A stretch of 64,000 nucleotides of DNA, taken from the NCBI RefSeq assembly GCF_001719615.1, contig NZ_MDVX01000009.1:1-64000 (forward strand), given 5' to 3'. This stretch comes from Neptunicoccus sediminis (lineage in GTDB: Bacteria; Pseudomonadota; Alphaproteobacteria; Rhodobacterales; Rhodobacteraceae). The notes under the pieces were generated by a model. It was not told the DNA's origin, searched no databases, and saw only the letters and a program-made list of their open reading frames with translations. Of this stretch, positions 29,293 to 30,840 are shown piece by piece. Position 1 is the stretch's first letter. Each line of letters begins with the position of its first letter. Both the position numbers and the translations under genes were made by a program.

Positions 29293-29327
29293 CACGCCTC
29301 GCGAAACCTTCGCGGGGCGTATTTTTT
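29293..29327 (+). terminator. Terminator after carB
   Basis: ACGCC(T)CGCGAA pairs with TTCGCG(GG)GCGT, followed by ATTTTTTT, 22 bases after the carB stop codon. Confidence 0.8.
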
Positions 29328-29407: not shown

Positions 29408-29426
29408 TTTGCAGGTAGCTTTGCAG
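29408..29426 (+). promoter_or_regulatory. Direct repeat TTTGCAG upstream of the GNAT gene
   Basis: TTTGCAG occurs at 29408-29414 and 29420-29426, starts 12 bases apart (about one helical turn) and about 31 bases before the start codon. It is a candidate regulator-binding or promoter site; it is not a lux-box-like palindrome. Confidence 0.3.
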
Positions 29427-29456
29427 ATATAGAACCGCTCAACGTAGGAGAGTATC

Positions 29457-30005
29457 ATGCAAACCCCGGAAACCAGTGTTTCGATGATCAAAGATCTGTC
29501 AGAAATGCAAATAGCCCACGACATCCGCAGACAAGTCTTTGTGATTGAAGGAGAAGAATCCGAAGACGTGGAATTCGACGGCAATGATTTCTGCGCCGCC
29601 CATCTGCTGGCCTATTGGAAGGGCAAAGCCGTTGGCACCATGCGTCTGAGGATTGTATCAGGCAGCGAAGGCGGCACAATCATCTGGGAGCGTATGGCCA
29701 TTCTTAAGGACGCACGGGAACGCAACCCGTGGATTTTTAGAGCCTTGATGAACAGCGCGCGCCATTATACTGATATTATGGGGCTGAAGAACGTGATCGG
29801 CATCGTTGAAAACCCGAAACTCATGCGGTTTTGGCAGATTTACGGTGGCAAGGAAACCGGAGAAGAGCCGTTGGAATTTCGCGGGCACACCTACCGCCCT
29901 ATCCGTCTGACCATCCAGCGGGACAAACCGCAGGAGGAACTGACACTGCGTCAGGCGATCATGGCGGTTCCCGAAGTCTTTGATGAGACAAGGAAAAATA
30001 CGTGA
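29457..30005 (+). CDS. GNAT-fold acyltransferase, LuxI-like candidate, coupled to a LuxR-type gene
   Basis: The 182-residue protein has the GNAT N-terminal half with R24-x3-F28, D41-x2-D44 and GTMRL (60-64), spacing shared by LuxI homoserine-lactone synthases and other GNATs such as ElaA. The LuxI tryptophan and the E-x2-R pair are not evident, and the usual Gln/Arg-x-x-Gly-x-Gly/Ala acetyl-CoA loop is replaced by KDARERNPWIF after WERMAI (77-82). So it is a divergent acyl- or acetyltransferase, possibly signal-producing. AGGAGAG lies 6 bases before the start. Its stop codon overlaps the next start (GTGA). Confidence 0.7.
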   Translation: MQTPETSVSMIKDLSEMQIAHDIRRQVFVIEGEESEDVEFDGNDFCAAHLLAYWKGKAVGTMRLRIVSGSEGGTIIWERMAILKDARERNPWIFRALMNSARHYTDIMGLKNVIGIVENPKLMRFWQIYGGKETGEEPLEFRGHTYRPIRLTIQRDKPQEELTLRQAIMAVPEVFDETRKNT

Positions 30006-30700
30006 CAGTAAGTTTCGCCCTCTTGATGGAGCGACTATGGCAGTCGGATAGTCCCGAGACAACTCGGGACATAATCCTCAGCCTTGGGTTTAACGGTCTG
30101 GTTTTCCAGCGCTGGTCGCCCGACTATATCGAAAACTGGGAAGGCCGAATCGCTGAAGGGTTTCTGGAGCATTACTACGGCGCCCAGCTTGACCAGCACT
30201 GCCCGATTGCCAAAGCCATTCACACCTGGTCACGCAGCTATACCTTTGGTCAGGCACGCAACCAGCCCGGTGCGGATACAGAAAACGCGCTACGGGTGGA
30301 ACGGTTGTTCCAGCAGTTCGGGATGAAGGACGGGGTGGTCCTGCTGACAGGGCAAAACCATCTGCGGTCCTCGGTCATTCTGACCAATGCCCATAGTGTA
30401 GAGGCGGAATTTGAACGCTTCGGTGGCATGTTATATTTCGCCGCTGACAAGCTGACCCGTCAGTTGCACCCCGGACACCCCCTATTGAACCATGTGCCGC
30501 GGGAAAATCCGACCCTGTCGGATATGCAGACGAAAATCCTGCAAATGCAGATCGACCACCCCGAGCTGAGCAAAAACGAAATGGCGCTCGCCCTTGGACT
30601 GTCGCCTAAAACGCTTCATGCGCACCACAAAAAGATCGCCAAGAAAAACGGCGTGACCACATTTGCCGGTGCTGTGATCAAAAAACTGAAGGAGTCCTGA
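30002..30700 (+). CDS. LuxR-family regulator with autoinducer-domain-like N terminus
   Basis: The 232-residue protein starts at a GTG that overlaps the stop of the GNAT gene (GTGA), so its translation is coupled to it. The N-terminal part resembles the LuxR ligand-binding domain, with the pattern W..Y..HYYGAQLDQHCPIAKAI..WSRSYTF matching the D-P-x-x-x...W positions, though less conserved. The C terminus (about 170-230) has a LuxR-type helix-turn-helix (LSKNEMALALGLSPKTLHAHHKKI) that deviates from the consensus, so DNA binding is probable but should be tested. No other target is evident. Confidence 0.75.
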   Translation: MTVSFALLMERLWQSDSPETTRDIILSLGFNGLVFQRWSPDYIENWEGRIAEGFLEHYYGAQLDQHCPIAKAIHTWSRSYTFGQARNQPGADTENALRVERLFQQFGMKDGVVLLTGQNHLRSSVILTNAHSVEAEFERFGGMLYFAADKLTRQLHPGHPLLNHVPRENPTLSDMQTKILQMQIDHPELSKNEMALALGLSPKTLHAHHKKIAKKNGVTTFAGAVIKKLKES

Positions 30701-30732
30701 CAGACCCGACCTACGCGGCCGCTGCGGACATA

Positions 30733-30768
30733 GAAACCCCGGCTGACTTTGCGGGCAGCCGGGGTTTC
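30733..30768. terminator. Bidirectional terminator
   Basis: GAAACCCCGGCT and AGCCGGGGTTTC form a perfect 12-bp stem between the convergent LuxR-type and XRE genes. T tails are short on both sides. Confidence 0.75.
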
Positions 30769-30840
30769 TTACTCGAATACTCGTTACAAACCGGAACTTT
30801 TCCAGAAATCGGGCGGCGTGGATTACCGCCCGCACCAGGA

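Follow-up and report, generated by a model that had tools for sequence, protein, structure and literature searches.

GNAT and LuxR genes at the locus

We analyzed a 64,000-nucleotide stretch of the Neptunicoccus sediminis genome (assembly GCF_001719615.1, contig NZ_MDVX01000009.1, positions 1 to 64,000), hereafter the window, which carries a gene for a GNAT-fold acyltransferase-like protein directly followed by a gene for a LuxR-type regulator. As the sequence-only reading of this DNA had indicated, both open reading frames (ORFs) are present in the order GNAT then LuxR, and the stop codon of the first and the start codon of the second share the letters GTGA, an arrangement that suggests translational coupling. 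A 4-bp overlap is found in 13 of the 26 GNAT-LuxR pairs that we collected, when every ORF is read from its first start codon. Because hairpins bound the pair on both sides (Table 1), it looks like a stand-alone bicistron; the hairpin behind the LuxR gene is absent from the terminator-scan list. Much of the spacer above the 24-nt leader has diverged among the same six Amylibacter-clade genomes in which the leader itself is invariant, making the leader a possible regulatory site. Wherever an Amylibacter-clade locus extends far enough, carB is found on its upstream side, and contexts differ elsewhere.

Table 1. Coordinates of the GNAT-LuxR pair and of adjoining features in the window
Feature	Position	Strand	Remarks
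GNAT-fold acyltransferase-like gene	29457..30005	+	ATG start, 182 amino acids; ElaA/YjcF-related clade without RxxGxG/A acetyl-CoA loop
LuxR-type regulator gene	30002..30700	+	GTG start, 232 amino acids; F54-Y58-C67-P68 versus W-Y-D-P; C-terminal LuxR-type helix-turn-helix (HTH)
GTGA overlap of both reading frames, 4 bp	30002..30005	+	
Ribosome-binding-site leader, 24 nt	29431..29454	+	Invariant in 6 of 6 Amylibacter-clade genomes
Direct repeat TTTGCA-N6-TTTGCA	29408..29425	+	Sole copy in the 64-kb window; similar to TTGCAA, the published PraR consensus; speculative
Terminator-like hairpin and T run after carB	29294..29320	+	Divides carB from the GNAT-LuxR pair
Strong intergenic hairpin, LuxR gene to convergent XRE gene	30732..30769		z -5.8; terminator-like, short T tract
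XRE/Cro-C1 regulator gene, 113 amino acids	30841..31182	-	PraR/CdxA-like by description; convergent neighbour of the LuxR gene

Families of the two proteins

The GNAT had been said to share the R-x3-F, D-x2-D and GxxRL pattern of LuxI synthases and to lack the normal acetyl-CoA loop. These residues are all found in the window protein (R24 and F28, D41 and D44, GTMRL), and R24, F28, D41, D44, R63, Y104, G115 and W126 are invariant in the 26 pair GNATs. In a profile alignment, the first five correspond to the conserved R24, F28, D45, D48 and R69 of LuxI. They lose their value as evidence for LuxI, however, because ElaA/YjcF-type GNATs have the same residues, so that the pattern cannot discriminate; one such paralogue with R-x3-F and D-x2-D (L045) is encoded in the same genome. 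The motifs were thus rejected as a ground for LuxI membership, since they are shared with ElaA/YjcF-type GNATs, which keep the RxxGxG/A acetyl-CoA loop in 24 of the 26 ElaA-like genomic paralogues. As claimed earlier, the window GNAT is without this loop, which occurs in only one of 24 pair GNATs (2 of 26 with the pairs L267 and L289 added) and in one of 13 LuxIs.

None of 14 pair GNATs matched the LuxI model PF00765 at E<=1 under the HMMER filters, and neither of the two places that this model finds in the N. sediminis genome is the window GNAT gene. W34, invariant in the 13 aligned LuxIs, is opposite a gap in the pair GNAT sequence. The Pfam matches of the window protein (Acetyltransf_5, E 0.013; Acetyltransf_1, 0.017; FeeM, 0.042) all lie under the curated cut-offs, with 14.1 of the 27 bits required for PF21926 (FeeM). 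By nearest fold and profile, the pair GNAT belongs with ElaA/YjcF-type enzymes and apparently not with LuxI. Its profile match of 75-83% puts it closer to LuxI than its relatives are, which falls short of proof, and TofI is the only LuxI-family entry among the 50 GNAT fold matches listed, where absence from the list does not amount to exclusion. A FeeM-type structure ranked sixth in the Foldseek search; the weak Pfam signal does not speak for FeeM membership, being equally frequent in the LuxR-less control.

For these comparisons, 78 named GNAT relatives were considered, of which 77 passed and 60 remained after near-duplicate, short and stop-containing ones were removed. The GNAT alignment comprised 55 of those 60 and the window protein, and a further alignment held 22. 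Alignments of LuxI and LuxR used 13 of 20 and 11 of 20 loci, respectively, and the ElaA-like set consisted of 26 ORFs of 130-200 amino acids out of 35 loci.

The window regulator also stays under the curated Pfam cut-offs (HTH_24, E 0.00074; GerE, 0.005; Autoind_bind, 0.049), reaching 13.6 of the 23 bits needed for PF03472 and 16.9 of the 23.5 needed for PF00196. Its structure model, computed from an input of five sequences, is of low confidence, with a predicted local distance difference test score (pLDDT) of 64. The best Foldseek matches of this model were RhlR, QscR, CviR, SdiA and LasR (E from 3.4e-7), and its ligand part agrees with CepR2 and LasR to 3.4 A across 137 and 139 residues; the C-terminal LuxR-type HTH is backed by HTH and full-length profile matches. 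The regulator is thus predicted to have the fold of a quorum-sensing receptor, a ligand domain joined to a LuxR-type HTH, and the LuxR-like ligand domain noticed earlier is borne out by the model, with a pocket that deviates.

Receptors for N-acyl-homoserine lactones (AHLs) have W-Y-D-P at the pocket positions. We aligned the LuxRs of 24 pairs jointly with 11 canonical LuxRs of the same genus and read the pocket columns by TraR numbering. The W57 column holds Phe in 23 of the 24 pair LuxRs and Ser in one, and the D70 column holds Cys in all of them, whereas Tyr is kept throughout at Y61; P71 is Pro or Ala in every case and G113 is Gly in 21. The resulting motif is F-Y-C-[P/A] in 23 sequences and S-Y-C-P in the remaining one, and the canonical WYDPWG is found in none. 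The motif of the pair LuxRs recurs in two unpaired ones, L253 and L265.

Distribution, inheritance and neighbours of the pair

In total, 26 GNAT-LuxR pairs were found in 22 genomes belonging to four alphaproteobacterial families. Within the genus of N. sediminis, 6 of 33 genomes carry the GNAT (84-100% identity), followed each time by the LuxR gene with the same 4-bp overlap; Amylibacter cionae is among the nearest relatives, with 98% GNAT identity. The pair had been suggested to be a module of roseobacters, a specificity that was rejected. Among 394 sampled genomes of its own family, the full-length LuxR of the pair was found in the N. sediminis genome alone, with three others matching by parts, and pairs occur in three other families, namely in f105, in a genus of a third family and in one genome of a fourth. 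In the class, 7 of 385 genomes matched the LuxR profile, one of them through the HTH alone. In f105, the regulator is present in 11 of 14 genomes and the pair in 10 of 14, and in the order of genome G678 the LuxR was found with full-length scores in 5 of 61 genomes, all from one genus of the third family, where 5 of 9 genomes also have the pair. Duplicate loci were counted once (L001/L002/L167/L217/L271; L032-L036 with L049-L052 and L266; L168-L191 and L272-L276 with L247-L264), and L173, an HTH-only match, was left out of the LuxR-type count.

Searches that started from the regulator yielded 22 loci (one in the N. sediminis genome, 13 in f105 and eight in f155), 19 of which have a GNAT gene directly upstream on the same strand at a gap of -41 to +215 bp. 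The non-canonical pair of a synthase-like protein and a regulator proposed from the letters is therefore conserved and adjacent, and 24 of 27 LuxR loci have an adjacent GNAT once the five loci of the same genus found through the GNAT are added. Starting from the GNAT, a LuxR gene comes next after all seven matches with E below 1e-38 in the 385 genomes of the class, and after 25 of 25 in 28 genomes chosen mostly for carrying the LuxR. A clear score gap separates these from 29 weaker matches (E 1e-34 to 1e-16); among the 24 whose loci were examined, LuxR adjoins a single one, the divergent pair L289 of the fourth family. A survey of 398 genomes of the phylum gave, among the matches listed, no further full-length LuxR of the pair type, the rest being partial and mostly HTH-only, and a plasmid survey gave no match for it. 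The large surveys of family, class and phylum scored no more than the 7 or 8 best candidates of a genome, so that absences in them are not firm. No report of this GNAT-LuxR pair was found in the open-access literature.

Between species of the same genus, the ratio of nonsynonymous to synonymous substitution rates (dN/dS, NG86) ranges from 0 to 0.055 for the GNAT and from 0.032 to 0.046 for the LuxR. No value was obtained for the many comparisons with saturated dS; these ratios indicate strong purifying selection on both genes. Protein distances of the two partners correlate at 0.977 across 24 pairs (L267 and L289 were left out here and in the trees), a value that none of 5000 permutations reached. 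The GNAT and LuxR trees show the same four main groups, which cut across families: the second copies of f155 genomes G855, G857 and G860 cluster with G805 of f105, and G722 of f105 clusters with f155 and Amylibacter. Both trees are midpoint-rooted with long branches, and their finer order differs in places and is unsure. Because the trees match each other and are at odds with taxonomy, the pair seems to move and duplicate as one unit, inherited and transferred between distant bacteria. In the divergent pair L267 (L267:3799-5156, minus strand), a GNAT of the same clade overlaps a LuxR that scores above the PF03472 cut-off and keeps W-Y-D-P, which ties this clade to autoinducer-type receptors. 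A ParA-like gene recognized by eye lies near the L267 pair and suggests a plasmid.

The XRE gene next door belongs to the only neighbour family common to more than two pair lineages, counting ORFs of at least 100 amino acids within 3 kb of 25 pairs (the window itself left out); LysR-type and ABC-ATPase-like families, named by eye, are each common to two. The window protein has a Cro/C1 HTH (PF01381, E 6.1e-15). Homologues lie within 1.5 kb of 15 of the 25 pair loci, whereas GNAT relatives with no LuxR have one at 4 of 97 loci, or 15 of 22 versus 2 of 69 when only full flanks are considered; the Fisher values (about 1e-9 and below) are overstated, since the pairs are not phylogenetically independent. 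Ten loci have the XRE gene convergent after LuxR, at a distance of 972 bp in one case, and five have it divergent before the GNAT; its homologues are common on plasmids (734 records). By description, the regulator is of the PraR/CdxA kind. Two genes of luxR type, raiR and rhiR, are repressed by PraR (PMC4149787), and in Rhizobium and Methylobacterium quorum sensing works by way of this regulator (PMC10790750). The XRE regulator could control the GNAT-LuxR pair. The TTTGCA-N6-TTTGCA repeat was not relied on as a PraR operator: it is confined to the window, L049 and L050, no copy precedes the pair in L051, L052, L266 and 17 further loci, and the consensus TTGCAA occurs in just one (L050) of 22 upstream stretches of 200 nt.

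Other genes of these families were seen along the way. The N. sediminis genome also has a canonical LuxR-LuxI pair and a second, divergent LuxI-like protein with an N-terminal extension (L270:3063-3818, plus strand), encoded near genes that look by eye like histidine kinases, and the genus has other weak matches to LuxI and to LuxRs of about 205 amino acids. Pfam-model searches that find the LuxI and LuxR genes of this genome do not report the GNAT-LuxR pair, which would explain why surveys have overlooked it. In the wider GNAT family, L061:4195-7152 and similar loci among L053-L126 have a divergent LysR gene, a protein of about 205 amino acids without a Pfam match, the GNAT and an isochorismatase-like gene; in many of these loci, an ORF of about 410 amino acids suggests that the 205-residue protein is fused to the GNAT.

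A candidate signal synthase and its possible receptor

We favour, at a probability of about 0.5, a self-contained synthase-receptor module, with the GNAT producing an acylated, non-AHL ligand that its own LuxR binds. The loop-less, ElaA/YjcF-related enzyme would probably acylate a small amine, such as an amino acid, taking its acyl group from a longer acyl-CoA or acyl-acyl carrier protein (acyl-ACP), and the product would be the ligand of the co-translated regulator. The pocket appears to keep the Tyr of AHL receptors, with Phe and Cys in place of the anchoring Trp and Asp, and because these two are replaced, the ligand would not be an ordinary AHL. The ligand-bound LuxR would then control target genes, possibly including its own operon, and the product may serve between cells. 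The PraR-like regulator may set when the module is on.

Several observations weigh against this interpretation. The structures nearest to the window GNAT are SACOL1063, 3efa, YjcF, PA0115 and ElaA, and those of TofI (LuxI family) and FeeM do not outscore generic GNATs such as RimI and Naa50. The LuxI profile score is under the usual thresholds and drops to 2% against two divergent LuxIs alone, and the weak FeeM signal of Pfam is seen in 9 of 14 pair GNATs versus 15 of 22 LuxR-less relatives. Only 7 of 22 LuxR-less relatives keep the RxxGxG/A loop; since most of them have lost it too, loop loss alone does not amount to signal synthesis. On the receptor side, the model is weakest at residues 37-77, the motif region, so that the motif register rests on sequence alignment, and the column of W85, the fifth motif position, is ambiguous, one register giving Trp in 13 of 24 and another mostly Phe. 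Three LuxRs of the same type (L253, L265 and L268) have no adjacent GNAT, and L268 is also without the Tyr.

A private metabolite-sensing operon is the strongest competitor, although we consider it distinctly less probable. Here, the LuxR would sense a metabolite, from within the cell or from the environment, that the GNAT acylates for detoxification or catabolism, giving feedback with no cell-cell signalling. The ElaA/YjcF-type affinity of the GNAT, the LysR and isochorismatase-like genes that adjoin the inspected LuxR-less relatives in a metabolic-operon layout, and a pocket without the AHL-anchoring Asp and Trp would all suit it. It accounts less well for the lost acetyl-CoA loop, the receptor-type fold of the ligand domain and the pairing of one clade member (L267) with an AHL-type LuxR; moreover, with XRE aside, no neighbour within 3 kb is common to more than two pair lineages, so that no catabolic genes seem to co-travel. 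The sequence-only reading had named as grounds against signalling a GNAT that clusters with ordinary acetyltransferases and genes that part company in relatives: the GNAT does group in part with such enzymes, of the ElaA/YjcF type, but the separation of the two genes in relatives is false.

The frequent 1:1 pairing, the overlap and the strongly correlated protein distances would also fit regulation at the protein level, the GNAT acylating or binding the LuxR or another regulator and tuning DNA binding with no small-molecule ligand, and its structural neighbours include the protein acetyltransferases RimI and Naa50. We regard this as improbable, given that the LuxR keeps a ligand-domain fold with a near-invariant pocket motif and that three LuxRs of the pair type have no GNAT beside them. 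Still further down the scale comes an ordinary but diverged AHL system, for which the shared R24/F28/D41/D44/R63 pattern, the LuxI profile match and the LuxR fold can be cited, against the failure of all 14 scanned pair GNATs to match PF00765, the gap at W34, the replacement of the residues at both D70 and W57 in every one of 24 partners and the canonical LuxR-LuxI pair already present in the genome. TacT-type toxins generally have ribbon-helix-helix (RHH) proteins as partners, in the order antitoxin-toxin. A toxin-antitoxin pair of this GNAT-toxin kind, with the LuxR as antitoxin-repressor, would agree with a small module of a GNAT and a DNA-binding protein that appears to move between lineages, yet the GNAT comes first here, its partner has a ligand domain, and LuxRs occur without it; of all the explanations considered, we give it the least credence.

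A broader proposal may be made, which we advance only tentatively: the pair would represent a new class of alphaproteobacterial signalling, a horizontally mobile module that unites a loop-less ElaA-related acyltransferase, a non-AHL acyl signal, a dedicated LuxR with an invariant Cys for Asp and often its own PraR-like repressor, missed by Pfam-based quorum-sensing surveys. It would have arisen alongside LuxI, in a different branch of the GNAT superfamily. Since both window proteins fall below the cut-offs, surveys by Pfam cut-offs would not count such a system. Many LuxR-type regulators have no known ligand; this subgroup comes with a probable ligand-maker attached, and the ligand can be sought by expressing the two genes. 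Should the GNAT make a signal, one could test for a second origin of LuxI-like synthases among ordinary acetyltransferases, for which natural comparisons are offered by relatives that have no LuxR and by the L267 pair with its AHL-type LuxR.

Compared with known systems, the pair resembles LuxI/LuxR AHL circuits (PF00765/PF03472) in its adjacent GNAT-fold and LuxR-fold genes, in the R-x3-F, D-x2-D and Arg pattern and in the rarity of the acetyl-CoA loop; it differs in the ElaA/YjcF-type affinity and sub-threshold Pfam scores of the window proteins, in the gapped W34 and in a receptor motif of F-Y-C-[PA] versus W-Y-D-P. From ElaA, YjcF, SACOL1063 and PA0115, the pair GNATs are set apart by the lost loop and by their LuxR, as a LuxR-type ORF was found in none of the 35 paralogue loci of about 3 kb each. 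With the FeeM-type N-acyl amino acid synthases (PF21926), they share the weak Pfam signal and the Foldseek rank, but the window GNAT is below the cut-off, the signal is equally weak in LuxR-less relatives and the Z score is no better than for generic GNATs. The XRE gene beside the pair recalls PraR/CinS control in Rhizobium, a likeness by description only. PpyS and DarABC, synthases of non-AHL systems in Photorhabdus, are not known to be GNATs. Like the pair, PpyS/PluR and DarABC/PauR have a receptor of the LuxR type whose pocket motif deviates; ppyS adjoins the PluR gene (PMC10134790, PMC4414361), and the non-AHL sensors PluR and PauR keep and need the motif Asp (TYDQCS and TYDQYI; PMC4414361). 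Because PluR and PauR retain this Asp, the Cys of the pair LuxRs would be a further step.
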